Source: Bacillus weihaiensis
Lineage (GTDB): Bacteria; Bacillota; Bacilli; Bacillales; Bacillaceae
Length of the DNA: 64,000 nt
Reading direction: 5' to 3'
Assembly (NCBI RefSeq): GCF_001889165.1
Contig: NZ_CP016020.1
Coordinates: forward strand, 2,516,501-2,580,500
Each line of letters starts with the position of its first letter. Within the stretch, counting starts at the first letter, position 1. The notes under the pieces are model-generated. The model was not told where the DNA came from and ran no database searches. It was given only the letters and a program-made list of their open reading frames with translations. The translations under genes were made by a program, and so were the position numbers. Shown in pieces: positions 3,005 through 62,931 of the stretch.

Positions 3005-3198
3005 TCATTTGTTTTAATAAATATACAAAGTTCGACACGCATGCAAATCTTGATCTTTTCCACACGTACTTCTAAGAAGAACTATAATTAATCGGGTTGC
3101 ATGGTTGAAATGAAAATGAAAACAAGTAAAAACTGATTGGCATCAAATCCGTATTTTACCTAAATATTTATTTTTTGAAAAAGAAGGTGGGAAGTAAA

Positions 3199-4671
3199 TT
3201 GTTACAAAATGAAACACCATTATTCACAGGATTGATTGAGCATGCGAAAAAAAATCCTATACAATTTCACATTCCTGGTCATAAAAAAGGCGCAGGAATA
3301 GACCCTGAATTTAGAAATTTTATCGGGGACAATGCATTATCAATTGATTTAATAAATATCGGACCTTTAGATGATTTACATGCACCTAAAGGAATGATAA
3401 AAAAGGCACAGGAATTGGCAGCAGAAGCCTTCGGTGCTGATCACACATTTTTCTCTGTACAAGGAACTAGTGGCGCTATTATGACGATGGTAATGGCTGT
3501 ATGCGGACCTGGAGACAAGATTATTGTCCCTCGTAACGTTCATAAATCTGTCATGTCTGCCATTGTATTCTCAGGAGCAACCCCGATTTTCATTCATCCA
3601 GAAATTGATAAAAAATTAGGAATTTCTCATGGCATTACAAACGATGCAGTTGAGAAGGCTTTAATGCAGCACCCAGATGCAAAGGGTGTACTTGTTATTA
3701 ATCCTACATACTTTGGTATCTCTGCTGACCTGAAGAGAATTGTTGAAATTGCCCACTCTTACTCAGTTCCAGTATTGGTAGATGAAGCACATGGAGTACA
3801 CATACACTTCCATGAAGATCTTCCACTAAGCGCAATGCAAGCAGGTGCTGATATGGCAGCTACTAGTGTACATAAGCTTGGTGGATCTATGACTCAAAGC
3901 TCAGTATTAAATGTTAGAGAAGGTCTCGTATCACCTCAACGCGTTCAATCTATATTGAGCATGATGACAACAACTTCAACCTCTTACTTATTATTAGCGT
4001 CCTTAGATGTTGCTCGCAAACGCCTAGCAACAGAGGGCAAAGAGTTAATTGAAAAAACAATTACACTTGCTAATGAAACGAGAAATAGAATTAATGGAAT
4101 TCCTAAACTTCATTGTATAGGTAAAGAAATTCTAGGGACAAAAGCAACCTTTGATTTTGATCCTACTAAGCTTATTATCCCTGTATATGAATTAGGAATT
4201 ACGGGCTACGATGTAGAAAATTGGTTAAGAGAAAAGTACTCAATTGAAGTTGAGCTATCAGATCTCTACAATATATTATGCATCATCACTCCAGGAGATA
4301 CGAAGCAAGATGTTGACACGCTGGTTCATGCACTTCAAGAATTATCAAGTAACATAACCTCAGAAAGTGTGATTGATAATAAAGAGAGAATATATTTGCC
4401 AGATATTCCCGTATTAGCTCTTACACCTCGAGATGCATTTTATGCAGAAACAGAAATTATTCCTTTTGAAGAATCTGAAGGACGAATAATTGCTGAATTT
4501 GTTATGGTATACCCACCTGGTATTCCAATTTTTATTCCGGGTGAAATCATAACAAAGGATAATTTAGTGTATATCAAAAAGAACCTTGAAGTTGGACTCC
4601 CAGTTCAAGGACCAGAAGATCCTTCCTTAAATCAAATTCGTGTCATTAAGGAACATAAGGCCATACGATAA
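3199..4671 (+). CDS. speA: Arginine decarboxylase SpeA (PLP enzyme)
   Basis: A group III PLP-dependent decarboxylase of the Orn/Lys/Arg family, about 490 residues as in B. subtilis SpeA, which converts arginine to agmatine for spermidine synthesis. Near-identical stretches include PIQFHIPGHKKGAG, DDLHAPKG, the PLP-lysine region ATSVHKLGGS and the C-terminal FVMVYPPGIPIFIPGE. I place the start at TTG 3199, because GAAGGTGGG lies just before it and the product then begins LQNETPLFTG like its homologues; an in-frame TTG 24 bases earlier has no site. A SigA promoter lies 195 bases upstream. It converges on the SR1-like RNA. Confidence 0.93.
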   Translation: MLQNETPLFTGLIEHAKKNPIQFHIPGHKKGAGIDPEFRNFIGDNALSIDLINIGPLDDLHAPKGMIKKAQELAAEAFGADHTFFSVQGTSGAIMTMVMAVCGPGDKIIVPRNVHKSVMSAIVFSGATPIFIHPEIDKKLGISHGITNDAVEKALMQHPDAKGVLVINPTYFGISADLKRIVEIAHSYSVPVLVDEAHGVHIHFHEDLPLSAMQAGADMAATSVHKLGGSMTQSSVLNVREGLVSPQRVQSILSMMTTTSTSYLLLASLDVARKRLATEGKELIEKTITLANETRNRINGIPKLHCIGKEILGTKATFDFDPTKLIIPVYELGITGYDVENWLREKYSIEVELSDLYNILCIITPGDTKQDVDTLVHALQELSSNITSESVIDNKERIYLPDIPVLALTPRDAFYAETEIIPFEESEGRIIAEFVMVYPPGIPIFIPGEIITKDNLVYIKKNLEVGLPVQGPEDPSLNQIRVIKEHKAIR

Positions 4672-4718: not shown

Positions 4719-4749
4719 TCCTTTACCTAAGTTTTGCTTACCTAGAAAA

Positions 4750-4790
4750 AATAAGAAAAGCACTCAATGCCATTTATAGCTTGAGCGCTT
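4750..4790 (-). terminator. Terminator of the SR1-like RNA
   Basis: Minus-strand stem AAGCGCTCAA / TTGAGTGCTT (one G-U pair) with a 13-base loop followed by TTTTCTTATTTTTT. Matches the 3' end expected for an sRNA. Confidence 0.8.
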
Positions 4791-4823
4791 CAATCCCCTA
4801 TGCTTTCCTTCTATGATAACCCC

Positions 4824-4964
4824 TTATTTAACTTTAACAGATACTCTTGATTGCTTTTGATCACCACAGTTATGATGATTACATTGACCATAAAGTGTTG
4901 TCACTTTTTCCCCTTCAATATGACCAATAGTAGAGTTGCAGTGTTGACAAATGATTGTTCCCAT
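4824..4964 (-). CDS. sr1P: GapA-binding peptide SR1P
   Basis: A 46-residue peptide beginning MGTIICQHCN and containing GEKVTTLYGQC. It has the Cys-x-x-Cys and later Cys pairs of SR1P, the peptide encoded by SR1 in B. subtilis, where it binds glyceraldehyde-3-phosphate dehydrogenase GapA and promotes its interaction with RNase J1. The RNase J1 gene rnjA is in this same window at 22.8 kb. GAAAAGGGG gives 7-base spacing to this ATG; an ATG two codons earlier is too close to the site. The gene is too short for routine ORF calling and a shadow frame covers it on the other strand. Confidence 0.85.
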   Translation of the reverse strand: MGTIICQHCNSTIGHIEGEKVTTLYGQCNHHNCGDQKQSRVSVKVK

Positions 4965-5013
4965 CTTCATACCCCTTTTCAATCAAGAATAGCACTCTCA
5001 AAGTCTCCCACAT

Positions 5014-5028
5014 TTGAAAGCGTTTTAC
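5014..5028 (-). promoter_or_regulatory. cre-like site in the sr1 leader
   Basis: Plus-strand TGAAAGCGTTTTACA. It carries the central AANCG core and near-palindromic flanks, but the right half is offset by one base from the TGWAANCGNTNWCA consensus. It sits just downstream of the sr1 promoter, a position where CcpA would block elongation. A weak to moderate match. Confidence 0.45.
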
Positions 5029-5041
5029 ATTTGTTATCTTT

Positions 5042-5070
5042 ATATTAATATGTCACATTTAATTCGTCAA
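5042..5070 (-). promoter_or_regulatory. SigA-type promoter of sr1
   Basis: Minus strand TTGACG (5065-5070), a 17-base spacer and TAATAT (5042-5047). Located about 80 bases before the SR1P start. Confidence 0.75.
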
Positions 5071-5089
5071 GTGTTATATTGTATAACAC
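5071..5089. promoter_or_regulatory. CcpN-type operator upstream of sr1
   Basis: Perfect 8-bp arms GTGTTATA / TATAACAC around a 3-base centre, directly adjoining the -35 box. On the minus strand TGTGTTATACA fits TRTGHYATAYW, the CcpN motif as I recall it from the gapB, pckA and sr1 promoters, at all 11 positions; the other strand fits at 10 of 11. CcpN represses sr1 in B. subtilis. Confidence 0.65.
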
Positions 5090-5218
5090 ATTTAATTTTT
5101 TTATCCATTTTTCATCTTAATTACTCTCTTACACATCTTTATGTAAGGCTCTTTTCTTAAATTTCATTTTACTTTTACTACTTTTAAACGTAACCCTCAT
5201 GCTCCTTACATTAATAAA

Positions 5219-5271: not shown

Positions 5272-5730
5272 TTATTTCACACGTTTCTTTGCTGTTTCTA
5301 AATCCTTTAATATCGAATCATACGTCGCTTTCGAGAGGATACTTGAATCCTTTTTATAGCTTTCGATTAGGTATTCAAAATCTTCTATTGTAGTAGCTGT
5401 TCTATGAAAAACTGATTCAGGCATTCTTAGACATACATTACCTCTTAAAATACGAACAGTAATGTTCGTAGGCTCTTTAGTAACAGCCTGATCTAATAAA
5501 GAAAGTCCCTCTAAAGCATACTTCTTCTTATCTTTAGGTATTGGTGTATCTCTCGCTAGTAAGGCGGTAGCACTGGCATAATAAGCTAGTGCCTCAACAT
5601 TATTTTGATTCTCTTTACTAAGTTCCTTTAGGCGCTCATAAGCCTCTTGTGAAGCTTTACGATTTCCTTTTACAGCCTTATGGTAAGTATTAATCGCTTC
5701 CTGAAAACGTTCATTCCAACTTGCAGTCAT
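5272..5730 (-). CDS. TPR-like helical protein, one repeat unit
   Basis: I do not recognise a named family. The 152-residue product is cytosolic and all-helical with a TPR-like pattern (EALAYYASATALL, ALEGLSLLDQAVTKEPTN). Near residues 107-122 it carries MPESVFHRTATTIEDFEYL, a signature found twice, with a third variant, in the larger neighbouring paralogue. It corresponds to one repeat unit of that protein. Start ATG follows TGGAG. Same strand as the larger gene, 197 bases downstream of it, so the two may share a transcript. Partner binding is plausible from the fold; the function is unknown. Confidence 0.7.
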   Translation of the reverse strand: MTASWNERFQEAINTYHKAVKGNRKASQEAYERLKELSKENQNNVEALAYYASATALLARDTPIPKDKKKYALEGLSLLDQAVTKEPTNITVRILRGNVCLRMPESVFHRTATTIEDFEYLIESYKKDSSILSKATYDSILKDLETAKKRVK

Positions 5731-5927
5731 TACTCATCACTCCATTATCTTTTTTCGATTATGTGATGTTCCTATTGCCAATTCACAGCTTCCTAATTAC
5801 TAAATTAAAGGAATTTATCTTTCCGTTAAGAAGACACAATATGATTTAAAGGTAAAATACATGGTTAAATCAACTATCTTAAACATTTCTCTCCATTCAC
5901 ATGTTGAATATAAGCCCTACAAAACGT

Positions 5928-7673
5928 CTACTTAACGCCTTTCATTTGAAGAAATACTTGATAGATCATCTCTTCATCTTCTTTTTTCAGGATTTCCCAC
6001 ACTTCCTTCGCTTTATGAACGAAATGTTTTCTTTCATAAACAGTTCCAAGATCTGCTAAAATTTTCAGGTATTTATGCTTTGAAAGTTTTATTTTCCCTT
6101 CATGCTCTCTATAGAGAGCACAAATCATTTCAAAATCTTCAATGATTTTGTCATTGTTGTGGAAAAAGCTGTCAGGTAATTGAAACTCAATATATGCTCT
6201 TTTAATATACAAATCAATAAGCTCAAAGTTATTCTTCGGTAATGCAGTAGCCAACTTCTTTAGACCTTTTATTGTTTGGCTAAATAAATCATTCGGATCC
6301 TCATTGAATTTTCCTAACAATGTTAGAGAGGCAGCATAATAAAATTTGGCAATTGCACATGTAGGGTTTGCTTTTGTAGCTAATTCCCATATTTCAACAG
6401 ATTGCTTTGCAGCCTTTTTATTACCTAATACGCCAAATCGATGAATTATTTTCCCTTTTTCATATAATTCTTTTACATCTGAAGTGGTGGATACGTGGAA
6501 ATCTTCACTTGTAAAGGCGTCAACAAGTTCTTTCGCTTCTTTTTTAGTCGATGATTCTGTTGATAGCTGAAGTAGTTTATTCCAGCTCTCTACAGCTTCT
6601 TCGACCATATTAAGAGTCACTAAGCTCTTTCCTAATAGTAAGAGAATTTCCTCATACTGAGAAACAGAAAAGATTCGATAGTCTTTTTCATATTGCGTCG
6701 CTAAGTATTGAAAATCCCTTGCTGCAGTTGACGTTCGGAAGAAGAAGAACTCAGGTAACCTATAGCTTTGTAATGCTCTTATCATGCGAATTTCATAAAG
6801 CTCTGGGTATTCACTCACCAACTGATCTAAGGTTTGAGATGTTTTAATAGCCGTCATAAATAGTTCTACATAACCCGTTGCTTGATTTGCTACTTTCATT
6901 GCTAAACAATGAGTCATGTACGCTTGAATAATTGGGTTTTCGTGCTTTTGCTTTTGAATCGCATTTAATTCATTTAGTGCATGATATAGAGCCACTTCAT
7001 CTCCATGAACTGCTTGTTTATAGTATTCTACTAAAGTAGGATTGGTAGATGGTAGTTCATTGATATCTACTGTCTTCCCTTTATTTTGGTCACTATTATT
7101 TAAAGCAGGGAGTTGATAATCAGGATCTTTCTCTTTTACTTTTTCCGCATATGCTCTTGCCATATCTAGTTTATTTACTCTTTCGTATGCTTTCACTAAT
7201 CCCTTCATTACATCTATGAGTAATGATGATGGGATAGCACTTGGGTTCTCTGAATGCACTGATATCATATACTCAAAGTCTTCTATTGCGGTTTGAGTCC
7301 TTCTAAATCGATTTTCTGGTAGATTTATCGCTACATTCGCTCTTAGCATTCTGATTAATGGATTCGTCGGATCTTTTAACACTGCTACATCCATCATCTT
7401 TAACCCTTCATTCGCATATTTTCCTTTTTCTCTTAAATCTACTTCATCTCTAGCAAGCATCATCTTAACGGCCCCTAAATATGCCATTACTTCTGTGTTT
7501 GACGGATCTTCTTCTAGAAGTGACTTAAAAAGAGTATGCGCTTTACTTGCCGTTTTCTCCCCTTTAATGGAGCGATAGTATAATTCAAGAGCCACATCAA
7601 ACGGTTCAAGATCATCTTCATTTTCTTCAAGTGTTTTATCTATTTCTTTTTTTCTCTTCTTATTTTCTCCCAT
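5928..7673 (-). CDS. TPR-like helical protein with three internal repeat units
   Basis: A 581-residue cytosolic helical protein without signal peptide. Three units of about 150-170 residues are visible, at roughly 20-190, 205-365 and 385-575. Each has a helical pair resembling TPR and a motif of the type LPE-x-F-x-RT-x-AIEDFEYM: LPENRFRRTQTAIEDFEYM in unit 1, LPEFFFFRTSTAARDFQYL in unit 2, and the more divergent LPDSFFHNNDKIIEDFEMI in unit 3. The downstream 152-residue protein is a single such unit. Start is at the ATG giving MGENKKRKKE after GGAGGT; the open frame extends 54 codons further upstream without a site. Role unknown. It lies between SR1 and a BCCT transporter, which gives no functional clue. 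Confidence 0.75.
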   Translation of the reverse strand: MGENKKRKKEIDKTLEENEDDLEPFDVALELYYRSIKGEKTASKAHTLFKSLLEEDPSNTEVMAYLGAVKMMLARDEVDLREKGKYANEGLKMMDVAVLKDPTNPLIRMLRANVAINLPENRFRRTQTAIEDFEYMISVHSENPSAIPSSLLIDVMKGLVKAYERVNKLDMARAYAEKVKEKDPDYQLPALNNSDQNKGKTVDINELPSTNPTLVEYYKQAVHGDEVALYHALNELNAIQKQKHENPIIQAYMTHCLAMKVANQATGYVELFMTAIKTSQTLDQLVSEYPELYEIRMIRALQSYRLPEFFFFRTSTAARDFQYLATQYEKDYRIFSVSQYEEILLLLGKSLVTLNMVEEAVESWNKLLQLSTESSTKKEAKELVDAFTSEDFHVSTTSDVKELYEKGKIIHRFGVLGNKKAAKQSVEIWELATKANPTCAIAKFYYAASLTLLGKFNEDPNDLFSQTIKGLKKLATALPKNNFELIDLYIKRAYIEFQLPDSFFHNNDKIIEDFEMICALYREHEGKIKLSKHKYLKILADLGTVYERKHFVHKAKEVWEILKKEDEEMIYQVFLQMKGVK

Positions 7674-8036
7674 GTACCTAGCTGACCTCCAATCAAAAAT
7701 ATGAATTGATTCTTTTCTAAAAACACAGTGATAATTTATGAAAAAAAGGAAAAGAAGTGCTTTAAAACGATAAATAGTATGAATTCGTCTACGTACAAAT
7801 TGACTGAGGATATAAACTGAATGGGAAATAATCACTTAGAACAAAAACTCTTTACACATTTGACTCAATTTTCTCAAATCAGGCCAAGTGGTAAAAAAAG
7901 AATAGTAAAAAAGGTCGTATAGTTTAAGCCACTATGCTTCACTATATAGAGGAGGATCGTTAGAATTATTTTCATGTGCACATTTTTAGAGAAAGATTAA
8001 ATATGAAAGATATAAAGGAGGAACAAGATCTACAAT

Positions 8037-12408: not shown

Positions 12409-13821
12409 TTATTTTACGATATGAATTGGGTTACCAATTGCTACTTCAGCAGCTTCCATCGTAATTTCGCCTAATGTTGGGTGAGCATGGATCGTCATTG
12501 CGATATCCTCAGCAGTCATTCCTGCTTCAATTGCTAAACCAAGCTCTGAAATCATGTCAGATGCGCTAGGACCAGCAATTTGTGCACCGATAACTAACCC
12601 GTCCTCTTTACGAGTGATAAGTTTTAAGAAACCATCTGCGTTATTAAGAGATAACGCACGGCCATTAGCACCGAATGGGAATTTAGAAGCTTTCACTTCA
12701 ATTCCTTCTTCCTTAGCTTGAGTTTCAGTGTAACCAACTGTAGCAAGCTCTGGTTCAGAGAATACAACAGCAGGAATACCTAAGTAATCAATTTCAGCTT
12801 TCTCTCCAGCAATTGCTTCTGCAGCAATTTTACCTTCGTAAGAAGCTTTATGAGCTAATGGTGGTCCTTCTACAATATCACCAATTGCATAGATGTTTGG
12901 AATGTTCGTACGGCATTGTTTATCAATTTTGATAACGCCTCTCTCATTCAATTCAACACCCACTTGCTCTAAGCCAAGTTCATCTGTGTTAGGACGACGG
13001 CCTACTGTTACTAATAGGTAATCAGCTTCAACCGTTTTTTCTTCACCTTTTACTTCAAATGTAACTTTTACTCCATTTTCGTCTTCCTCTACACCTTTAG
13101 CCATAGCTTTTGTGAAGATTTCAACATTACCTTTTTTCTTAAGGTTACGCGTTACTAAAGAGCTCATTTGCTTCTCAAAACCAGCAAGAATTTCGTCAGC
13201 TGCTTCAATGAATGTTACTTCTGTACCAAAGTTAGCATAAGCCGTACCTAACTCTGTACCAATATAACCTCCACCAATTACAACCATCTTCTTAGGAATT
13301 TCTTGAAGATTTAGAGCACCAGTCGAATCTAATACACGCTTAGAGTATTTGAAAGCTGGGATTTCGATTGGACGAGAACCAGTAGCAATAATTACATTTT
13401 TGAATTTATACGTTTGTGAAGACGTTTCATCCATTACTTTAACAGTTTCATTATCAACAAAGTAAGCTTCTCCACTAACAACGTCTACTTTATTACCTTT
13501 AAGTAATCCAGCTACACCACCTGTTAGTTTTTTCACTACACCTTGTTTGAATTCTTGAACTTTAGAAAAGTCAACTGTAACCTTCTCGGCTTTAATACCC
13601 ATATCTTCTGAGTGCAAAGCGTTCTCGTAGCGGTGTCCAGCAGCAATTAATGCTTTTGAAGGAATACACCCTACATTTAAACAAACTCCACCTAAAACAC
13701 TTTTTTCTACAACTGTTACTTTTTGTCCAAGTTGAGCAGCGCGGATTGCTGCAACATATCCGCCAGGACCTGCTCCAATGACAAGAGTATCTGTTTCAAT
13801 TGGGAAATCTCCAACTACCAT
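12409..13821 (-). CDS. pdhD: Dihydrolipoyl dehydrogenase (E3) PdhD
   Basis: A 470-residue FAD-dependent pyridine nucleotide-disulfide oxidoreductase that reoxidises the lipoyl groups of the pyruvate dehydrogenase complex with NAD+. Visible are the FAD motif [15 protein letters not shown] at about residues 17-31, the redox disulfide [14 protein letters not shown] near 44-57, the NAD motif [10 protein letters not shown] near 188-197, FAD motif YAIGDI, and the C-terminal HAHPTLGE carrying the catalytic His-Glu. Last gene of pdhABCD; its GGAGG site lies inside the final codons of pdhC. E3 may also serve other 2-oxoacid complexes. Confidence 0.97.
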
Positions 13822-13824
13822 CGA

Positions 13825-15159
13825 TTACGCCTCCATTAAAATAAGTTGTGGATCGTTCAGTAAACGCTTGATGTGGTTAAGAGCATTTTGAGCAGTAGCA
13901 CCATCAATCATTCTGTGGTCAAAGCTTAGAGATAAAGCTAAGACTGGAGCTACTACAATCTCTCCATCACGAACTACTGGTTTTTCAGCAATACGGCCAA
14001 TACCTAAAATTGCAACTTCAGGATGGTTAATTACTGGTGTAAACCATTGTCCACCTGCTGATCCAATATTCGTAATTGTACATGATGCACCTTTCATCTC
14101 GTTAGGAGCTAACTTACCATCACGTGCTTTTGTAGCAAGTTCGTTAATTTCATTTGAAATTTCGAAAATAGCTTTGCGATCTGCATTCTTCACAACAGGT
14201 ACAAGCAGACCTTTTTCAGTGTCAGCTGCAATACCAATGTTGTAGTAATGCTTTTGAACCACTTCATCCGTGCTATCATCTAAAGATGTATTAAGAACTG
14301 GATACTTTTTAAGCGCTGAAGTAAGAGCTTTCACTACGTACGGTAAATATGTTAACTTAATACCCTGGTCTGCTGCAACAGTTTTAAATTGTTTTCTATG
14401 CGCAACAAGGTTCGTTACATCCACTTCATCCATTAATGTAACGTGTGGCGCTGTATGTTTAGAGTTAACCATTGCTTTTGCAATTGCCTTACGCATTCCG
14501 CTAATTTTCTCACGAGTTTCAGGGAATTCACCCTCTGGAACTGCTACAGCTTGTGGCTTAGCTTGTTTTTCATCTTTAGCTGCTGGTGCTTCTTCAGCTA
14601 CAGGCGCTGCTTGTGCAGAAGTGCCACCTTGTAAGAATGCATCGATATCTTCTTTAACTACGCGACCATTTTTTCCGCTACCAGATACTTGACGGATCTC
14701 AACACCTTTTTCACGAGCATACTTACGTACAGAAGGCATTGCGATTACACGTTTAGTAGGGTCAACATCCACTTCTTGTTGTGTAGCCTCTTGCTTAGGC
14801 GCTTCTTCTTTTTTCACTTCTTGACCAGCTTCAGCTGTTGCTTGAACCTGTGCTTCTGTTTTTTCTTCTTTCTTAGGCTCATCATCACCATGATCGCCTT
14901 TGAACTTAAGGTCTTCGTATCCAGGAGCATCAAAAGTAATAATTGTTTGACCTACTGTTGCTACTGTTCCTTCTTCTACGTTTACTTCAGTAACTGTTCC
15001 TTTTACTGGTGATGGGATTTCTACAACAGCTTTATCATTTTGAACTTCTGCTAGAACATCATCTTCTTCAACTTGATCGCCTGGTTTTACGAACCATTTT
15101 ACGATTTCACCTTCGTGAATACCTTCACCGATATCAGGCAATTTAAATTCGAATGCCAA
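13825..15159 (-). CDS. pdhC: Dihydrolipoamide acetyltransferase (E2) PdhC
   Basis: The 444-residue core of the pyruvate dehydrogenase complex. Order: one lipoyl domain at about 1-80 with the lipoyl-lysine in [12 protein letters not shown], an Ala/Glu/Lys-rich linker, the peripheral subunit-binding domain near 140-170 ([12 protein letters not shown]), a second Ala/Pro linker, and the acetyltransferase domain from about 205 with the catalytic [10 protein letters not shown] near the C-terminus. I choose the TTG at 15159 giving [13 protein letters not shown], which has GGAGG nine bases upstream; the earlier TTG touches the ribosome site. It follows pdhB after a 106-base gap with a hairpin. Confidence 0.96.
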
Positions 15160-15199
15160 TTCATTCAACCTCCTTAAGAATATAAAAAATAGATAAAAC

Positions 15200-15232
15200 G
15201 TGGCTTATCCTTTTGAAGCATAAGCCATTCGT
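15200..15232 (-). other. Hairpin in the pdhB-pdhC gap
   Basis: Short inverted repeat GGCTTAT / ATAAGCC in the only sizeable gap of the pdh operon (106 bases). No T-run follows, so it is more likely a processing or stability element than a terminator. Confidence 0.4.
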
Positions 15233-15265
15233 TCCATTTACATGATGTTATGAAAAAATATTTAA

Positions 15266-16243
15266 TTAGAAATTAACAACTTTACGAGCAGTTTCAAGGA
15301 TATCCTTATAAATTGGTAACCAGATGTTTTCTGCTTCAGTGAATGCATAAACAGTATCTGGAGCAGTAACACGTAAAACTGGAGCCTCTAAGCTTAAGAT
15401 CGCACGTTCTGTAATTTCCGCTACTACGTTCGCTGCAATACCAGCTTGTTTTTGAGCTTCTTGAACAACAATTGCGCGACCAGTTTTTTCAACTGAAGCA
15501 ATAATTGTTTCAATATCTAGTGGGCTAATAGTACGTAAGTCAACGACTTCAACTGATACTCCATCTTTTTCTAACTCTTCTGCAGCTTTTAATGATTCGT
15601 GAACCATTGCTCCATAAGTGATAATCGATAGATCCGTACCTTCGCGCTTAACATCAGCTTTACCAATTTCGATTGTGTACTCTTCTTCTGGTACTTCTTG
15701 ACGGAAAGAACGGTATAATTTCATATGCTCTAAGAATACAACTGGATCGTTATCACGAATCGCAGAAATTAATAATCCTTTTGCATCATATGGAGTTGAT
15801 GGAATAACAACTTTTAATCCAGGTTGTTGAGCCACTAATCCTTCTAAGCTATCTGCGTGTAGCTCTGGCGTATGTACGAACCCTCCGAAAGGAGAACGAA
15901 TTGTTACTGGTGCAGTCCAATGACCACCAGAACGGTAACGCATACGAGCTAATTGTCCACTAATTGAATCCATTACTTCATATACAAATCCGAAGAATTG
16001 AACTTCCATAACCGGACGGAAACCTGTCAGTGCGAATCCAATAGTTAAACCACCAATACCTGATTCAGCAAGTGGAGTATCGAATACACGATCTTCACCA
16101 AATTCTTTTTGAAGTCCCTCCGTTGCACGGAATACGCCACCATTTAATCCAACGTCTTCTCCAAATACAAGGACGTTTTCATCTTTTTTCAACTCAGTGC
16201 GTAAGGCATCTGTGATGGCTTGAATCATTGTCATTTGTGCCAT
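15266..16243 (-). CDS. pdhB: Pyruvate dehydrogenase E1 beta subunit PdhB
   Basis: A 325-residue transketolase-like beta subunit; with PdhA it decarboxylates pyruvate using thiamine diphosphate and acetylates E2. Stretches such as [41 protein letters not shown] and [14 protein letters not shown] match Bacillus PdhB almost exactly and the length is the same. ATG start after AAAGGAG, with pdhA ending three bases before it. It acts in the cytosol within the large PDH complex. Confidence 0.97.
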
Positions 16244-16246
16244 GGC

Positions 16247-17656
<1,410 letters not shown>

Positions 17657-22567: not shown

Positions 22568-22777
22568 ATGATTTTCAAAGTATATTTTCAAGAAAATAAA
22601 ATAGAGGTTCCTGTTCGCGAAAGAACAAACACTCTATATATTGAGGCAACAACTGAAGGGGAAGTTCGCGCAAAATTAAAAGACCGCCCTTATAATATTG
22701 AATTTGTTTCTCCTGTAGAAGGAGCTTATTTAGAATATGAGAAGCAAAGTGAAAACTATAAAGTATTGGAGATTTGA
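22568..22777 (+). CDS. rpoY: RNA polymerase epsilon subunit RpoY
   Basis: A 69-residue protein of the RpoY (YkzG, DUF1447) family, the small epsilon subunit of Firmicutes RNA polymerase that binds near the beta' jaw. [20 protein letters not shown] and [13 protein letters not shown] match the family, and the gene is immediately upstream of rnjA as is typical. Start ATG after AAGGAGAG. Its stop overlaps the start region of rnjA, so the two are translationally coupled. Confidence 0.92.
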
Positions 22778-40321: not shown

Positions 40322-40516
40322 CTTTCATCCTCCTATACCTTTATCTATTAGATTTTTAAAAATATTCTAAATATTTGCCACTTAACTTTGTAGTGACTCA
40401 GCTTCGATCTCAAACTTACTAAGATCTAGTATAAGAAAACGGTGCCATTTTGTCATGTTATTCGATTTCAATTAATGATACTATATAACTATTATCCGCA
40501 TATAAGGAGAGACATC

Positions 40517-42256
40517 ATGTTCATATTGCTACTTACAATGCTTGAAAGACTAGGAATAATTGTCACTGTTGCATTCCTTATGACAAAACTCTCTTTTTTC
40601 AAAAATATGATTCAGCGTAACGAAATTAGTCGTAAACAAAAATATTTGGCCATTCTCTTTTTTGGCGCTTTTGGCATCATCGGAACATACTCTGGTATTA
40701 CCTTCGACTCTCACTCCCTTCAGTTTGATCGGTGGGCATATGCCCTTGGAAACGAAGAAGCAATCGCCAATTCAAGAGTCATCGGTATTATCATTGCTGG
40801 ACTACTAGGTGGCTATAAAGTTGGAATTGGAGCAGGAATTCTCGCTGGAATTCACAGATTTTCATTAGGTGGATTTACAGCACTATCCTGTGGATTTTCA
40901 GCCATTTTGGCAGGTGTTATAGCAGGTTTCTTCTATAAGAAAAAATCAAGACTAAAGCTTACAACTGCTTTTTTTGTTGGTGCACTTGCAGAGGCTGTTC
41001 AGATGCTTATCATTTTACTCGTATCTAAACCGTTTGAACAAGCGTTTCAACTTGTACAAACAATTGGAATCCCTATGATTGTTGCTAATGGTGTGGGTTC
41101 AGCTATTTTTTTACTTATTATTAAAAGTGTGATTAACGAAGAAGAGAAAATAGGTGCTCTTCAAGCTCAAAAGTCCCTTTCACTAGCAGAAAAAACACTA
41201 ACATACCTCAGAAATGGACTTAACACTCAAACAGCCGAAAAAGTATGTCATATTATCTATAATGAGGTTGATGCTGTAGCAGTTTCCATTACAAACCAAG
41301 AAAAGATTCTAGCACATGTTGGTTTAGCAGATAATCACCATTTGCCTAATGCTGTGCTTCAAACGTCCTTAACTAAAGAAGTCATACAACGCGGAGTTCT
41401 AACCATTGCAACTCAAAAAGATATACATTGCTCAACTGACGATTGTCCGTTGGGTGCTGCCATTATAGCCCCTTTAAAAAGACGTGATGAAACGATTGGA
41501 ACATTGAAATTTTATCTTCATTCGGAGAAAGACCTTTCAAATGTCATGATAGAGCTTGTTCGTGGGTTAAGCTCTTTACTAAGTAATCAATTAGAAATTG
41601 CTGAAGCAGAGCACGCAAAACAATTAGCAAGAGAAGCAGAGATTAAGGCGTTACAAGCTCAAGTTAGTCCACACTTTCTCTTTAATTCTTTAAATATAAT
41701 TGTTTCACTCATAAGAACAAATCCAGATATGGCTAGAAAATTACTTATTTCTCTTTCTAAATTTTTCAGAAAAAACGTAACTGGAACTCAGTCTAAGTGG
41801 ACAACGGTGAGAGAGGAAGTAGATCATGTAAAAGCTTATTTAGCCATTGAAGAAGCAAGATTTATAGATAAGCTTAAAATTCACTATGATATTGATGAGA
41901 GCGCCTTAGCTTATCAATTACCCCCTCTCACTTTACAGCCGATCATTGAAAACTCAATAAAGCATGGAATCCAAGACATGCAACATGCTTGTCATATAAT
42001 GATATCCGTTAAACGTATTCATTCAAAGGTTCAAATAACTATTAAAGATAACGGGAAAGGGATGGACCGGAATCGACTAGATTCTCTATTAAACTCAATA
42101 GTTAACTCAAAAACTGGCACAGGGTTTGGATTATTCAATGTAAACCGACGCTTGCTATTAATGCTCGGGGATGAAAGTAAGTTGTCGATTTCTTCGACGA
42201 TCAATAATGGGACGTCTGTATCATTTATGTTACCATCTTCTATTCATGTTGATTAA
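40517..42256 (+). CDS. lytS: LytS-type sensor histidine kinase
   Basis: A 579-residue kinase: a 5TMR-LYT membrane domain at about residues 1-200, a GAF-like domain near 215-350, and a HisKA_7TM/LytS-type catalytic core. The phospho-acceptor is in QVSPHFLFNSLNIIV near 371-385, with NSIKHGI, DNGKGMD and GTGFGLFNVNRRL for ATP binding. Relatives (BtsS, LytS) respond to extracellular pyruvate or cell-wall state. Start at ATG 40517 after AAGGAGAG; the open frame extends 25 codons upstream without a site. The partner lytT follows after a 225-base gap containing a decayed repeat. Confidence 0.9.
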   Translation: MFILLLTMLERLGIIVTVAFLMTKLSFFKNMIQRNEISRKQKYLAILFFGAFGIIGTYSGITFDSHSLQFDRWAYALGNEEAIANSRVIGIIIAGLLGGYKVGIGAGILAGIHRFSLGGFTALSCGFSAILAGVIAGFFYKKKSRLKLTTAFFVGALAEAVQMLIILLVSKPFEQAFQLVQTIGIPMIVANGVGSAIFLLIIKSVINEEEKIGALQAQKSLSLAEKTLTYLRNGLNTQTAEKVCHIIYNEVDAVAVSITNQEKILAHVGLADNHHLPNAVLQTSLTKEVIQRGVLTIATQKDIHCSTDDCPLGAAIIAPLKRRDETIGTLKFYLHSEKDLSNVMIELVRGLSSLLSNQLEIAEAEHAKQLAREAEIKALQAQVSPHFLFNSLNIIVSLIRTNPDMARKLLISLSKFFRKNVTGTQSKWTTVREEVDHVKAYLAIEEARFIDKLKIHYDIDESALAYQLPPLTLQPIIENSIKHGIQDMQHACHIMISVKRIHSKVQITIKDNGKGMDRNRLDSLLNSIVNSKTGTGFGLFNVNRRLLLMLGDESKLSISSTINNGTSVSFMLPSSIHVD

Positions 42257-45816: not shown

Positions 45817-45830
45817 TGTAAGCGTTATCA
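45817..45830 (+). promoter_or_regulatory. cre site upstream of cstA
   Basis: TGTAAGCGTTATCA matches the cre consensus TGWAANCGNTNWCA at every position. It ends 21 bases before the cstA ATG, a roadblock position, so CcpA repression of cstA in the presence of glucose is expected, as known for B. subtilis cstA. Confidence 0.8.
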
Positions 45831-45851: not shown

Positions 45852-47294
45852 ATGTTTACATTTATCGGAGGAATTATACTTCTTATTTTGGGATATTTTA
45901 TTTATGGAAAATTTGTTGAAAAAGTATTTGGTGTAAAAGAACAAAGACAAACACCTGCTATTACAAAAAGAGATGATGTCGACTATTTACCTATGGGAAA
46001 AAAACGGAATTCCCTCATTCAATTATTAAATATTGCAGGTGTTGGGCCAATTTTCGGACCGATTATGGGAGCTTTATATGGACCTGCAGCTTTTATATGG
46101 ATTGTCATTGGATGTATCTTCGCAGGAGCTGTACATGACTATTTAACTGGAATGATTTCTATCAGAAATCGCGGGGCACATTTACCAGAGCTTGCAGGAA
46201 AATTTTTAGGAAAAGCTATGAAACATGTAGTAAATGCCTTTGCTATTCTTTTATTACTATTAGTTGGAACCGTTTTCGTTACTGCACCAGCAGATCTATT
46301 AGTAGGTTTAACTCCTGATTGGGTTTCCTTTGGTATGATCATTGGAGCAATCTTTATCTATTATATATTAGCTACACTTTTACCAATAGACAAAGTGATA
46401 GGGCGTTTATATCCTGTTTTTGGAGCAATGTTATTAATAAGTGCGCTTGGTGTTGGAGCTACTTTGATTATTACAGGAGCACCAATACCAGAATTAACAT
46501 TCGCAAATATGCACCCAGATAACGCACCTATTTTCCCATTATTATTTTTAACTATTTCATGTGGAGCTTTATCAGGATTCCATGCAACACAAACACCGAT
46601 TATCTCACGAACTACACAAAATGAATCTCAAGGACGGTTTATTTTTTACGGAATGATGATCGCAGAAGGAATTATAGCCATGATTTGGGCTGCAGCTGCG
46701 ATGAGTCTATTTGATGGTTACAACGGTTTAGCTGATATTTTAGCAAATGGTGGTCCAGCAGCAGTTGTGAGTGAAGCATCTATTGCTATGCTTGGTGCTA
46801 TTGGGGGAACATTAGCTGTATTAGGAGTCATTGTTTTACCAATTACATCTGGTGATACTGCGTTTAGAAGTGCACGTATGATTATTGCTGATTACTTAAA
46901 CATCTCACAGTCAAAAATTATGACGCGCCTATGGATTGCTATACCTTTATTCGTTCTTTCATTCGCTTTAACAAGAATTGACTTTACATTATTATGGCGT
47001 TATTTCTCTTGGGCAAATCAATCCACAGCCGTAATTGCTTTATGGGTTGGTGCAATGTACTTGTTTATCGCAAAGAAAAATTATTGGATTGCCATGATTC
47101 CAGGTATCTTTATGACGATGGCAACAACAACGTATATTCTTAACGCTGCAATCGGCTTTGGATTGCCACTCACTATTTCTTATATTGGAGCTAGCATCAT
47201 CACAGCCGTGATTATTGCGTTATTTTATAAGGCTGCAAGTAAATCTAGAGCAAATGCCTTACCTCTTGATGACGACATAGGTCAAGCTGCGTAA
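45852..47294 (+). CDS. cstA: CstA-family carbon starvation / pyruvate or peptide transporter
   Basis: A 480-residue membrane protein with many helices. The N-terminus (LLILGYFIYGKFVEKVFGV), GVGPIFGPIMGALYGP near residues 63-78 and HDYLTGMISIRNRG near 98-111 are hallmarks of the CstA family. Members include E. coli CstA and the pyruvate transporter BtsT, which is controlled by the LytS/LytT-like system BtsSR. This version is shorter than the roughly 700-residue E. coli proteins and close to shorter Firmicutes forms. AAGGAGG site. A perfect cre site and the nearby lytST pair point to control by carbon source and pyruvate. Substrate not proven. Confidence 0.9.
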   Translation: MFTFIGGIILLILGYFIYGKFVEKVFGVKEQRQTPAITKRDDVDYLPMGKKRNSLIQLLNIAGVGPIFGPIMGALYGPAAFIWIVIGCIFAGAVHDYLTGMISIRNRGAHLPELAGKFLGKAMKHVVNAFAILLLLLVGTVFVTAPADLLVGLTPDWVSFGMIIGAIFIYYILATLLPIDKVIGRLYPVFGAMLLISALGVGATLIITGAPIPELTFANMHPDNAPIFPLLFLTISCGALSGFHATQTPIISRTTQNESQGRFIFYGMMIAEGIIAMIWAAAAMSLFDGYNGLADILANGGPAAVVSEASIAMLGAIGGTLAVLGVIVLPITSGDTAFRSARMIIADYLNISQSKIMTRLWIAIPLFVLSFALTRIDFTLLWRYFSWANQSTAVIALWVGAMYLFIAKKNYWIAMIPGIFMTMATTTYILNAAIGFGLPLTISYIGASIITAVIIALFYKAASKSRANALPLDDDIGQAA

Positions 47295-54124: not shown

Positions 54125-55987
54125 TTATTCAGTTACAGGTTTCTTTAAAAGACCCAACATAAGGGCTGTTACAATTGTCCCTGCTAAAATAGCAACTAGA
54201 TACAATAATGGATTACCTTCAACAAAGTAGATGACGAAAGCACCACCATGTGGAGCACGTAAACCGTTTCCGAAGAACATTGCTAAAGCTCCTGCTACAG
54301 CAGACCCTGTGACTATAGATGGAATCACACGAGCTGGATCTGCAGCGGCGAATGGAATGGCACCTTCCGTAATAAAGGAAGCACCCATAATATAGTTAGT
54401 AATACCAGCTTCTCGTTCACGTATTGTAAACTTATTTCTAAATAAAGTTGTCGCTAATGCAATTCCTAACGGAGGTACCATTCCACCTGCCATGACAGCA
54501 GCATGTGGAGCAAAGTTACCAGCATCAATCATGGCTATACCGAATGTAAAGGCAGCTTTATTAATTGGACCACCCATATCTACAGCCATCATTCCACCTA
54601 GAATGAGACCTAAAAGTACTAAGTTTCCAGTTCCCAATCCACCTAAAAAGTCACTAATACCTTGATTTAATGCACTTACCGGCTGATTAACAACAAAGAA
54701 CATAATCATACCAACTGTAAAGATGCTTAATACTGGATATAATAATACTGGCTTAATACCTTCTAAAGAAGACGGCATACCTGATAATAATTTTTTCAGT
54801 AAAAGAACAATGTAACCTGCTAAAAACCCTGCAATTAATCCACCTAAGAAACCAGCTCCACCTTGAGCAGCCATGAATCCCCCTACCATACCTGGTGCTA
54901 AACCAGGGCGATCAGCAATACTCAATGCAATGAATCCTGCTAAAACTGGAACCATTAATCCAAAGGCATTACCACCACCGATTGTAGCTAGCGCTTCTGC
55001 AAAACGATTATATGTTTCATGTGTAGGGTCTCCAGCATGAATACCAAACATAAATGATATAGCAATAAGGATACCTCCACCAACTACAAATGGAAGCATG
55101 TTTGATACACCATTCATTAAATGTTTATAGAAACCCGTTTTTTCTTTCGTACCGTTATTTTCTCTATTGGATTGACCGTTGCCTTGATAAACTGGTGCAT
55201 CTTGATTTAATGCTCTTTCCAAAAGTTCTTGTGGCTTTCTAATTCCATCTGCTACTGGAACAATGATCACATGCTTTCCATTGAATCGTTCCATCTCTAC
55301 TTGTTTATCAGCAGCAACAATGATGGCCGTTGCTTCATCGATTTCTTGTTGTGTTAAGACATTTTTAGCTCCACCAGATCCGTTCGTTTCCACTTTAAAA
55401 GAAAGATTCATCTCTTTCGCTTTTTCTTTTAATGAATCCGCTGCCATATACGTATGCGCAATTCCTGTTGGACATGCCGTTACAGCTAATATTTTACCAG
55501 CAGTTGTACCTTGTATTTCTGCGTCTTCTTCTTTTTCATCGTATTGATCAATAATAGAAAGAATATCTTCTTCGGTTTTCGCAGCTAAAAGCTTCTCTCT
55601 AACCTCTTGCTTCATTAAAATCGTTGAAAGCTTAGATAAAGCCTCTAAATGTGTGTTGTTTGCTCCCTCAGATGCTGCAATCATGAAAAATAAATGACTT
55701 GGCTGTCCATCAAAAGCTTCATAATCTACTCCCTGTGAAGACCGGCCAAATGCAATTGCAGGACTCTTTACAGCATTTGTTTTAGCATGTGGAATAGCAA
55801 TTCCATCGCCAATACCAGTTGTGCTTTGTTGTTCACGGTTTAAAACAGCTTGTTTATATGCTTTTGGATCTGATAATTTACCAGCCTTATCTAATACGTT
55901 TACTAACTCACTAATTGTAGCGTTTTTCGTAGTAGACGTAATATTTAGTGTAATCGTTTCCTTTGTAAGTAACTCCGTAATTCTCAT
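54125..55987 (-). CDS. fruA: Fructose PTS transporter EIIABC
   Basis: A 620-residue fused PTS permease, importing fructose as fructose-1-phosphate. Order: EIIA at about 1-145 with the phospho-His in GIGDGIAIPHAKT; EIIB at about 165-260 with phospho-Cys in AVTACPTGIAHTYMAA; and the EIIC membrane domain from about 290 to the end (GGILIAISFMFG, GAIPFAAADPARVIP, APHGGAF). Third gene of fruRKA, 13 bases after fruK. Ribosome site GAGGGTGAAGG. Expression should depend on FruR and CcpA. Confidence 0.95.
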   Translation of the reverse strand: MRITELLTKETITLNITSTTKNATISELVNVLDKAGKLSDPKAYKQAVLNREQQSTTGIGDGIAIPHAKTNAVKSPAIAFGRSSQGVDYEAFDGQPSHLFFMIAASEGANNTHLEALSKLSTILMKQEVREKLLAAKTEEDILSIIDQYDEKEEDAEIQGTTAGKILAVTACPTGIAHTYMAADSLKEKAKEMNLSFKVETNGSGGAKNVLTQQEIDEATAIIVAADKQVEMERFNGKHVIIVPVADGIRKPQELLERALNQDAPVYQGNGQSNRENNGTKEKTGFYKHLMNGVSNMLPFVVGGGILIAISFMFGIHAGDPTHETYNRFAEALATIGGGNAFGLMVPVLAGFIALSIADRPGLAPGMVGGFMAAQGGAGFLGGLIAGFLAGYIVLLLKKLLSGMPSSLEGIKPVLLYPVLSIFTVGMIMFFVVNQPVSALNQGISDFLGGLGTGNLVLLGLILGGMMAVDMGGPINKAAFTFGIAMIDAGNFAPHAAVMAGGMVPPLGIALATTLFRNKFTIREREAGITNYIMGASFITEGAIPFAAADPARVIPSIVTGSAVAGALAMFFGNGLRAPHGGAFVIYFVEGNPLLYLVAILAGTIVTALMLGLLKKPVTE

Positions 55988-56000
55988 CTTCCTTCACCCT

Positions 56001-56912
56001 CTATCCTTTTTTCATTTCTATTTGAGGTAATAGCTTTTCGACTTCTTCTTTCGTACATAGCTCTAATGAAAATGCTGTTGCACTCCCTGATGCAACTCCT
56101 ACTTTAAATGCTTCTTCAAGAGAGCTTCCTGTAGAAATTGCACTTAAAAATCCACCAACTACTGAATCCCCTGCTCCAACAGAATTTAAAACTTCTCCTT
56201 TAGGGATATTTGCAATATAGCTAGCATTCTCTGTAACTAGTAAAGCACCTTTTTCTGCCATTGACACAATCACATGTTTGACACCTTGTTCTACTAGCTT
56301 CTTTCCGTATAGTAATGCCTCATTCACTGAATGAATTTTCGTATGAAAAAGCTCACCTAATTCATGATGATTTGGTTTAATTAAGAATGGCCTTCCATTT
56401 ACTACTTCTTTTAGAGCATCTCCAGACACGTCTGCCACAACTTTTATACCTTTTTCATGACACACATCCATAATCTTGTTATAAATAGTTGGCGGCAAAG
56501 TTCCGGGAATACTTCCTGCTAGTACCACGATATCATCTTGATTCATCTCTTTAAATTTCGCCAAGAACTGGTCAAGAACTTCTGAAGAAATAGATGGACC
56601 TATTCCGTTTATCTCCGTCTCATCACCTGTTTTCAGCTTAATATTAATTCTTGTGTCCCCTGCTACTTGAATAAAGCTTGTTTCTATCTTTTCTTCCTTT
56701 AGGAATTCCTCCACATATTTACCAGTAAATCCACCGATAAACCCGAGTGCGTTTGATTCAACTCCAAGTCGTTTCAGAACGCGTGAAACATTAATTCCTT
56801 TACCACCTGGAAATTTGCTATCAGATGTTGTACGATTCAATCCACCTAACTTAAATGCTTCCACTTTAACGATGTAGTCCACTGATGGATTCAATGTGAC
56901 AGTATAAATCAT
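56001..56912 (-). CDS. fruK: 1-phosphofructokinase FruK
   Basis: A 303-residue PfkB-type sugar kinase phosphorylating fructose-1-phosphate to fructose-1,6-bisphosphate. N-terminal TLNPSVDYIVKV, substrate motif FPGGKGINVSRVLKRLG near residues 34-50, and the ATP/anion-hole motif NSVGAGDSVVGGFLS near 244-258 with the catalytic Asp. Its ATG overlaps the fruR stop by four bases, so translation is coupled. Confidence 0.95.
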   Translation of the reverse strand: MIYTVTLNPSVDYIVKVEAFKLGGLNRTTSDSKFPGGKGINVSRVLKRLGVESNALGFIGGFTGKYVEEFLKEEKIETSFIQVAGDTRINIKLKTGDETEINGIGPSISSEVLDQFLAKFKEMNQDDIVVLAGSIPGTLPPTIYNKIMDVCHEKGIKVVADVSGDALKEVVNGRPFLIKPNHHELGELFHTKIHSVNEALLYGKKLVEQGVKHVIVSMAEKGALLVTENASYIANIPKGEVLNSVGAGDSVVGGFLSAISTGSSLEEAFKVGVASGSATAFSLELCTKEEVEKLLPQIEMKKG

Positions 56913-57664
56913 GCCTTCACTACCTTTATTGCTGTATTTTTTATATATGGCTGTATCGCTTCTTCCTCTACTTCATCTGTGATAATCTTTGCATCCGCTA
57001 CTTCTGCTATTTTAGAAAAAGAGATTTCCCCGAATTTTGAGTAATCAGCTATAACAAATTTTTCCCTCGAAAGCTTTAGTGCCGTTTTTTTCATCACTGC
57101 TTCCTCAGGGTCAGGTGTTGTATATCCTAAATCCAAGTGAATTCCATTCACACCTAAAAAACACTTATCAAATCGGTATTGCTCCATTGAGTTAATAGCA
57201 CCTCTACCAATCATGGCTCCAGTTGATGGCTTTATATAACCTCCAACTAAATAGGTCCTTATTCCTTTCATTAATAGAGGCTCAATATTCGTATAGCCGT
57301 TTGTTACAACAACAATTTCCTTGTCTACCGGTAGATAATCAATCATTTGTAATGTCGTCGTACCAGCATCTAGGAAAATACAGTCTCCTTCTTCAACAAG
57401 AGAAGCTGCTTCCTTAGCAATCATGATTTTTTGTTGAAGGTTTTTGGAAGCTTTTTCACTTACATTTGGTTCATTTAAATTCCCTTGTAAAAGTGAAGCC
57501 CCACCATGAATTCTCTTTAAATATTTGTCTTCCTCTAATTGAGTCAAATCTCGTCTTATCGTAGATTCAGATGTATTTGTTAGATCAACAAGATCTTGAA
57601 TTTTAACTGAATGTTTCTCTTTAAGAAGTTCTAGAATGAGGCGATGTCTTTCTGGAGTGAGCAT
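56909..57664 (-). CDS. fruR: DeoR-family fructose operon repressor FruR
   Basis: A 251-residue DeoR regulator. The N-terminal winged helix-turn-helix (MLTPERHRLILELLKEKHSV, TSESTIRRDLTQLEE) covers residues 1-55; the DeoR effector domain follows with IFLDAGTTTLQM near 95-106 and KCFLGVNGIH near 165-175. It probably binds fructose-1-phosphate and relieves repression of its own operon. First gene of fruRKA. A cre site and tandem TGATT/TTTTGA repeats lie upstream. Confidence 0.92.
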   Translation of the reverse strand: MLTPERHRLILELLKEKHSVKIQDLVDLTNTSESTIRRDLTQLEEDKYLKRIHGGASLLQGNLNEPNVSEKASKNLQQKIMIAKEAASLVEEGDCIFLDAGTTTLQMIDYLPVDKEIVVVTNGYTNIEPLLMKGIRTYLVGGYIKPSTGAMIGRGAINSMEQYRFDKCFLGVNGIHLDLGYTTPDPEEAVMKKTALKLSREKFVIADYSKFGEISFSKIAEVADAKIITDEVEEEAIQPYIKNTAIKVVKA

Positions 57665-57684: not shown

Positions 57685-57700
57685 TTGTAAGCGAATTCAT
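57685..57700 (-). promoter_or_regulatory. cre site in the fruR leader
   Basis: TTGTAAGCGAATTCAT fits the relaxed cre consensus WTGNAANCGNWWNCAW at all positions and misses the strict form at one. It lies between the promoter and the fruR ribosome site, a position for CcpA repression. Confidence 0.65.
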
Positions 57701-62604: not shown

Positions 62605-62625
62605 TTCAGTGGCATTTTAGTGCTC

Positions 62626-62931
62626 TATCCGCGATTCTGGGCACTTTATCCGCGATTCTGGGCACTCTATCCGCGATTGTGAGTGCTCTATCCGCGATTA
62701 TGAGTGTTCTATCCGCGATTCTGGGCACTCTATCCGCGATTGTGAGTGCTCTATCCGCGATTATGAGTGTTCTATCCGCGATTCTGAGCACTCTATCCGC
62801 GATTCTGGGCACTCTATCCGCGATTCTGGGCACTCTATCCGCGATTCTGAGTGTTCTATCCGCGATAATGGGCGCTCTATCCGCGATTCTGAGTGTTCTA
62901 TCCGCGATAATGGGCGCTCTATCCGCGATTC
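62626..62931. repeat. Tandem repeat array, 15 copies of 21 bp
   Basis: Fifteen direct copies of TATCCGCGATTCTGGGCACTC and variants, starts exactly 21 bases apart from 62626 to 62920. The core TATCCGCGAT is invariant except one or two flanking bases; the last ten bases alternate between CTGGGCACTC, TGTGAGTGCTC, TATGAGTGTTC and AATGGGCGCTC types. Because 21 is a multiple of three, all frames can stay open; the minus strand reads repeated IADR(T/A/V)(L/P)R/I and the plus strand LSAI units. Neither has a convincing start site, so I treat it as non-coding. Confidence 0.9.

Follow-up and report, generated by a model that had tools for sequence, protein, structure and literature searches.

Only a few dual-function RNAs have been studied well in Gram-positive bacteria, and SR1 is among them. 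In B. subtilis, the CcpN sites of SR1 lie upstream of the -35 element and in the promoter spacer (PMC8464778), and reviews (PMC8464778 and PMC7430163) put a cre site ~260 bp upstream of psr1 and describe the contribution of CcpA as minor. The family is already on record outside B. subtilis, with 39 homologues in 2012 and 139 species in 2021 according to PMC8501984. Here we describe the SR1 locus of Bacillus weihaiensis, a Metabacillus version of this known Bacillus RNA family; the added value lies in a comparison of SR1 operators in relatives that have lost ccpN, and in a conserved, probably sugar-responsive box in the SR1 leader.

The SR1 locus of B. weihaiensis and its surroundings

The DNA analyzed, called the window below, is a stretch of 64,000 nucleotides of B. 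weihaiensis, and positions 4748-5090 of its minus strand hold an SR1 homologue (Table 1). In a search of the 64-kb window, Rfam family RF02376 matched 4834-5038 on that strand (49.8 bits against a gathering cut-off of 45, E 2.1e-6), and the 46-aa frame matched the SR1P family of Pfam, PF13790 (64.7 bits against a cut-off of 26, E 8.5e-18). The predicted RNA start was placed 7 nt downstream of the -10 element and the end was taken from the terminator fold, a hairpin that was absent from a simple terminator scan and came from folding. The original prediction, made from the sequence without database searches, had called an SR1-type RNA carrying a 46-residue SR1P frame, a promoter with a spacer of 17, a cre-like site, a terminator and a convergent speA, and each of these elements was recovered; the 17-bp promoter spacing was seen again in SR1 relatives.

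Table 1. Features of the SR1 locus and its convergent neighbor, in window coordinates.
Feature	Position	Strand	Basis and remarks
speA, convergent neighbor	3175..4671	+	PF01276, 390.7 bits; order kept in relatives
SR1 RNA, ~288 nt predicted	4748..5035	-	RF02376 match; start ~5035 and end ~4748 predicted
Terminator-like hairpin, then U-rich tail	4757..4791	-	Fold, -18.4 kcal/mol
SR1P, 46 aa plus stop	4824..4964	-	PF13790
SR1P ribosome binding site, AAAGGGG	4972..4978	-	Sequence
Leader hairpin, CGCUUUCAAA / UUUGAGAGUG	4993..5022	-	Fold, -11.6 kcal/mol; overlaps cre-like box
cre-like box, + strand reading TGAAAGCGTTTTAC	5015..5028	-	2 mismatches to TGWAANCGNTTWCA; conserved
SigA-type promoter, TTGACG-17-TAATAT	5042..5070	-	Sequence; kept in relatives
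CcpN box II, TGTGACATATT, in promoter spacer	5047..5057	-	Exact motif match; conserved
CcpN box I, TGTGTTATACA, upstream of -35	5080..5090	-	Exact motif match; conserved

The shadow frame said to hide SR1P is present on the opposite, + strand at 4851-5048. When codons 1-33 of SR1P were compared with 18 genus relatives (G018 and G010 left out), the differences at codon positions 1, 2 and 3 numbered 89, 26 and 168, and this concentration at position 3 favors SR1P as the coding frame; the same codons hold 117 synonymous and 105 non-synonymous codon differences, and conservation sits within the first 25 residues. The cysteine pattern of SR1P is suggestive of a zinc protein, but for a structural Zn(Cys)4 site, which would call for two cysteine pairs on a small beta fold, the fold matches were not significant, with ribosomal and TFIID chains among the lower-ranked ones, and the assignment was not adopted. 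A PDB sequence search with SR1P gave 0 matches.

PF13790 was found in 56 of 60 genomes, B. weihaiensis included, and the SR1P frame is in this sense conserved among relatives. RF02376 matched at E <= 0.001 in all 21 genomes of the genus, again counting B. weihaiensis, with 11 above the gathering score, while among 14 control genomes both families matched B. subtilis only. A total of 128 SR1P regions was reduced to 112 by removal of duplicates and to 108 loci once 4 group-B paralogues had been set aside. The related-locus set holds the best 80 of 426 relatives; its loci are not independent, and because only these 80 were kept it leans to close relatives.

That the Rfam model only just passes, and that 10 of the 21 genus members stay below its gathering score, would be expected if the match were a chance resemblance or a decayed SR1 copy. 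Two further RF02376 matches below threshold, at L058 and L063, are indeed noise over a frame read by eye as a membrane peptidase, and they were rejected as additional SR1 copies. SR1P, however, scores far above its cut-off, and because the frame, the operators and the synteny are conserved, chance or decay is already refuted and retains next to no probability. The B. weihaiensis locus is an ordinary, well preserved further member of a known family.

A second SR1P paralogue, with neither CcpN boxes nor a cre-like box, occurs in a sugar-type operon at L022:1501-1623, L023, L019, L024 and L029 (Metabacillus genomes G003, G019, G008, G005 and G013). At L022 and L023 it has a GntR/FCD regulator gene on one side and a gene for an RpiB/LacAB-type isomerase on the other; at L029 an SDR gene and the isomerase gene flank it, and a transketolase C-terminal frame is found further upstream; at L019 it follows the regulator gene at the contig end. 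Family searches of these neighbors covered L022 and L029 only. Here SR1P appears to have passed to the control of a different regulator. Other SR1P copies, at L064/L114 (M. bambusae), L079-L082, L085 and L089, have neither speA nor pdhD within flanks of up to 1.5 kb and retain exact paired CcpN boxes as well as the cre-like box.

Convergent speA follows SR1 in 67 of 80 titled loci under a scripted rule, which L088 fails only through its shorter locus. Among L008-L065, 56 loci bear an SR1P match, and 44 of them have a piece of speA next to it, some genomes being represented twice. This neighborhood is ancestral and therefore does not in itself argue for a circuit. The proposal that proximity to speA signals a circuit kept outside B. 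subtilis thus gains nothing from the inherited position, and the presence of SR1 in other species had already been published (PMC8501984). The same proposal had pointed to rnjA and pdh in the window. The gene for RNase J1, rnjA, is present at 22774 with a score above the NF047419 cut-off, and the pdh frames at 12409-17416 are borne out for dihydrolipoyl dehydrogenase and E1 alpha, both above cut-offs; the matches of the E2 frame stay under the curated cut-offs, and E1 beta had no match at the strict threshold used.

Upstream of SR1, two adjacent genes at 5272-7835 on the minus strand are 40% alike over 145 residues, the shorter having a weak TPR match below the Pfam cut-off, and the pair recurs beside SR1 in G001, G002, G004, G007, G012 and G015. 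Elsewhere in the window, 62622-62931 is a tandem array of 14.8 copies of a 21-base unit with frames open on both strands.

CcpN boxes and the loss of ccpN

CcpN is encoded in the B. weihaiensis genome (NF053704 equivalog, 344 bits against 260) by a gene flanked by frames that read as glyS and ppdR. The genome also encodes AhrC, pckA and two GAPDH genes, which we call gapA and gapB after neighbors read by eye. The CcpN motif, TRTGHYATAYW, occurs twice before gapB; near pckA, no more than 250 nt from its longest frame, there is one exact copy and one with 1 mismatch. In the 8 other Metabacillus that have gapB-type loci, all 10 of these loci carry two CcpN boxes with at most 1 mismatch. Two ppdR-type regulators occur in one genome (L002:1483-3770 and L003:1486-2301), one beside ccpN and the second directly preceding a frame read as pyruvate phosphate dikinase.

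At SR1, the original prediction had proposed an 8-bp palindrome as the CcpN operator and had missed box II. Both boxes are present with at most 1 mismatch, 31-34 bp apart, in 89 of 108 loci, compared to 1 in 5400 shuffled leaders, and in 64 loci both are exact. A promoter-anchored count miscalls the promoter at L016 and L017, scoring them as misses though their boxes exist, and the paired-box count misses L030 and L106 owing to their spacing; both counts are 89/108. Single matches to the motif are not above chance in the window (6 found, 2.72 expected, with 6 reached in 10 of 100 shuffles), and it is the pair at 31-34 bp that exceeds chance. The conserved predicted operator of SR1 is a pair of direct CcpN boxes 32-33 bp apart. 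The palindrome at 5089-5071 is real, but at least 7 of its 8 mirror pairs are found in only 1 of 108 loci, namely this one, with 6 in the next best; it comes about in this species through a fortuitous mirroring of box I by the bases that follow it. The CcpN-type control of the original prediction is supported, and the palindrome as operator is rejected. At 41242-41254, inside a frame read as a sensor kinase (40442-42256), exact CcpN-type matches overlap on the two strands, probably by chance.

Of 60 genomes, 57 have an NF053704 match above cut-off. Those without one, G008, G017 and G018, are all Metabacillus, and the weak sub-cut-off matches that are widespread, including in 12 control genomes besides B. 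subtilis, are not CcpN. In G017 and G018, glyS and ppdR are intact with ~0.23-0.25 kb and no ccpN between them, and in G008 the contig begins shortly before ppdR. The three genomes form one clade, so that the loss of CcpN amounts to about one event; the speA tree covers 20 of 21 genus members, with G018 left out for its short speA piece and placed by a tree of other genes, and the position of G010 differs between the two trees. These three genomes and G010, which has kept ccpN, have a single GAPDH that is 57-58% like GapB, compared to two or three GAPDHs in 8 others tested, an absence of gapB read from draft genomes of 70 to 460 contigs. CcpN and SR1P are not strictly coupled, as the 4 of 60 genomes without SR1P have CcpN above cut-off.

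A weight matrix whose training set was 68 other loci, including a G013 paralogue, gives the CcpN-less genomes the three lowest SR1 box scores of the 21 (8.8, 4.6 and -15.3, against 18.6 to 41.1 for the others), and G010 is fourth from last. Outside the 21, 5 of 87 loci score no higher than 8.8 and 11 of 87 no higher than 18.3. CcpN loss is not required for weak boxes, since at least one of these low-scoring loci, L037, comes from a genome with CcpN. In two of the three CcpN-less genomes box I still fits the loose consensus and box II has 2 mismatches, a state shared with several other loci. The -35 element has drifted in all three, against TTGAC in 18/18 of the others. The clade can be read as a ccpN knock-out made by nature: its predicted operators are weakened, and the leader element described below is not.

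A conserved cre-like box in the SR1 leader

The cre-like box lies at about +8 to +21 from the predicted SR1 start. Taken alone it is no better than chance, with 14 cre-like matches in the 64-kb window against 15.0 expected. Across loci, the pattern AANCGNTNWCA, which we take to be the cre core and which was picked after inspecting SR1 leaders, is exact in 82 of 108 leaders (0.24 expected from shuffles) and within one mismatch in 96 (5.04 expected); by this measure the predicted box is conserved order-wide, far above chance. In the 82 exact cores, the variation at positions 6, 9 and 12 stays within the pattern, but position 11, which the pattern also left free, is always T. All 21 genus leaders carry CGCTTTCA, the CcpN-less ones included. 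Of the 12 leaders without the box, 2 are mis-called (L016 and L017), 8 have a length of 42 nt, with Anoxybacillus or Parageobacillus as the title of 7, and 2 are others.

The + strand reading of the box has G2, C7 and G8, the cre positions singled out as very conserved in PMC3463425, which the core exact in 82 of 108 leaders fixes; in the SR1-strand reading only 2 of 82 have G2. An elongation-block type of CcpA site has been described, and the position of the box fits that type (PMC3463425). Between 5029 and 8710, a stretch that takes in the place corresponding to the upstream cre of B. subtilis, TGWAANCGNTTWCA had no match at up to 2 mismatches, the pattern being narrower than the published cre range. 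In the literature consulted we found no report of a cre box in the SR1 leader, though the primary SR1 papers may contain one. Two cre-like matches with one mismatch elsewhere in the window lie at 45817-45830, just before a gene at 45852 (+), and at 57686-57699, upstream of the DeoR-like regulator gene that belongs to a fructose-type PTS operon at 54125-57664 (-), the names being given by eye.

In B. weihaiensis the box is also an arm of the leader hairpin, so a role in the RNA is possible: the conserved element could be a 5' hairpin arm that tunes SR1P translation or SR1 stability and not a CcpA site. The two arms pair at -11.6 kcal/mol in this species, and a similar second arm is seen by eye in many of the 21 genus leaders. 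The second arm is, however, altered in several of them (e.g., G001, G002 and G012) with the box itself unchanged; across the order the box mostly keeps a distance of 15-20 nt from the -10 element while the leaders span 42 to 102 nt (two mis-called leaders excluded), and core position 12 is T in 62 and A in 20 of the 82 cores without a partner change evident by eye. We judge an RNA element to be improbable. The leader box is probably a CcpA site, and its conservation is an evolutionary pointer to a likely CcpA site in a short stretch of the SR1 leader.

Products, targets and comparison with known systems

SR1 was paired with 47 targets in 24-nt windows with accessibility, and ahrC ranked 11th, gapA 15th and gapB 23rd; a run with unbounded duplexes (ahrC 12th of 47) was discarded as its duplexes spanned whole RNAs. 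In 19 genomes, with the ahrC start found in 18, pairing with ahrC showed no consistent site, some RNA ends having run past the terminator. G021 was the only one of the 18 in which none of 15 shuffles equaled the ahrC pairing; 3 of 15 equaled or beat it in B. weihaiensis, and 2 of 15 in each of the B. subtilis-like G031 and G034. The ahrC signal is not distinguishable from background by this method, which lacks a working positive control. The top-ranked target in the 24-nt window run, pdhD, was a candidate new target with 14 perfect pairs to the SR1P tail codons, but the longest run in six relatives is 7 to 9 (in a seventh, G010, no pdhD start was found), and the pairing was taken as chance.

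The ahrC rank and the shuffle results, together with the excess of changes at codon position 3, the 117 synonymous against 105 non-synonymous differences and the conserved first 25 residues, would also suit an SR1 that is in effect only the mRNA for SR1P, its ahrC pairing having been lost or never kept in the genus. Set against this are the missing positive control, with the pairing equaled or beaten by shuffles even in G031 and G034, and the introduction of PMC8501984, which gives both SR1 functions as conserved. We therefore regard an mRNA-only SR1 as unlikely, although less so than an RNA element in the leader, and keep SR1P as the main product with ahrC pairing as a possible addition.

Taken together, we are highly confident in an SR1 orthologue of Metabacillus with CcpN repression through two boxes, probable CcpA control, SR1P as its main product and ahrC as a possible target. 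In glucose, CcpN on the boxes before the -35 element and in the spacer would hold RNA polymerase at the SR1 promoter, and CcpA would probably add repression at the cre-type box ~8-21 nt inside the transcribed region. Once glucose is gone SR1 would be made, with SR1P as its main product; SR1P, by analogy, would bind GapA, then idle for glycolysis, and raise the activity of RNase J1, and a second function may come from pairing of SR1 with mRNAs, ahrC among them. Of this scheme, the analysis itself shows that the RNA belongs to the family, which genes are present, and how the operator is laid out and conserved; the repression of SR1 and the effects on GapA and RNase J1 are carried over from B. 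subtilis.

A broader reading, which we offer tentatively and at somewhat less than an even chance, is that SR1 of Bacillaceae has a second catabolite operator, a CcpA cre at ~+8 to +21 acting by elongation block, and that the loss of gapB and ccpN in the M. malikii clade has left an SR1 under CcpA only, with an SR1P that would work with GapA where there is no separate gluconeogenic GAPDH. The clade without gapB raises the question of what retains SR1P, a product for gluconeogenic cells, where one GAPDH has to serve both directions.

Compared to SR1/SR1P of B. subtilis, the locus is alike in the N-terminal part of SR1P, in the CcpN boxes before the -35 element and in the spacer, in its SigA-type promoter, and in a genome that encodes CcpN, GAPDH, RNase J1 and AhrC. 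It differs in the predicted length of the RNA (~288 nt against 205 nt), in SR1P, which is 46 aa long compared to 39 aa and has another tail, in the leader hairpin, and in a box I palindrome restricted to this species. The cre-like box lies in the leader here, whereas the reviews cited above give the cre ~260 bp upstream in B. subtilis. With regard to the CcpN regulon, the same box motif precedes gapB and pckA in this genome, but the gapB boxes are on opposite strands while the SR1 boxes are direct and 32-33 bp apart. Among CcpA cre boxes, the candidate site, known here from sequence alone, departs from the consensus CA at its last two positions, and TGAAAGCGTTTTAC differs by one letter from the published boxes of mtlR and mleN (PMC3463425, Table 4).
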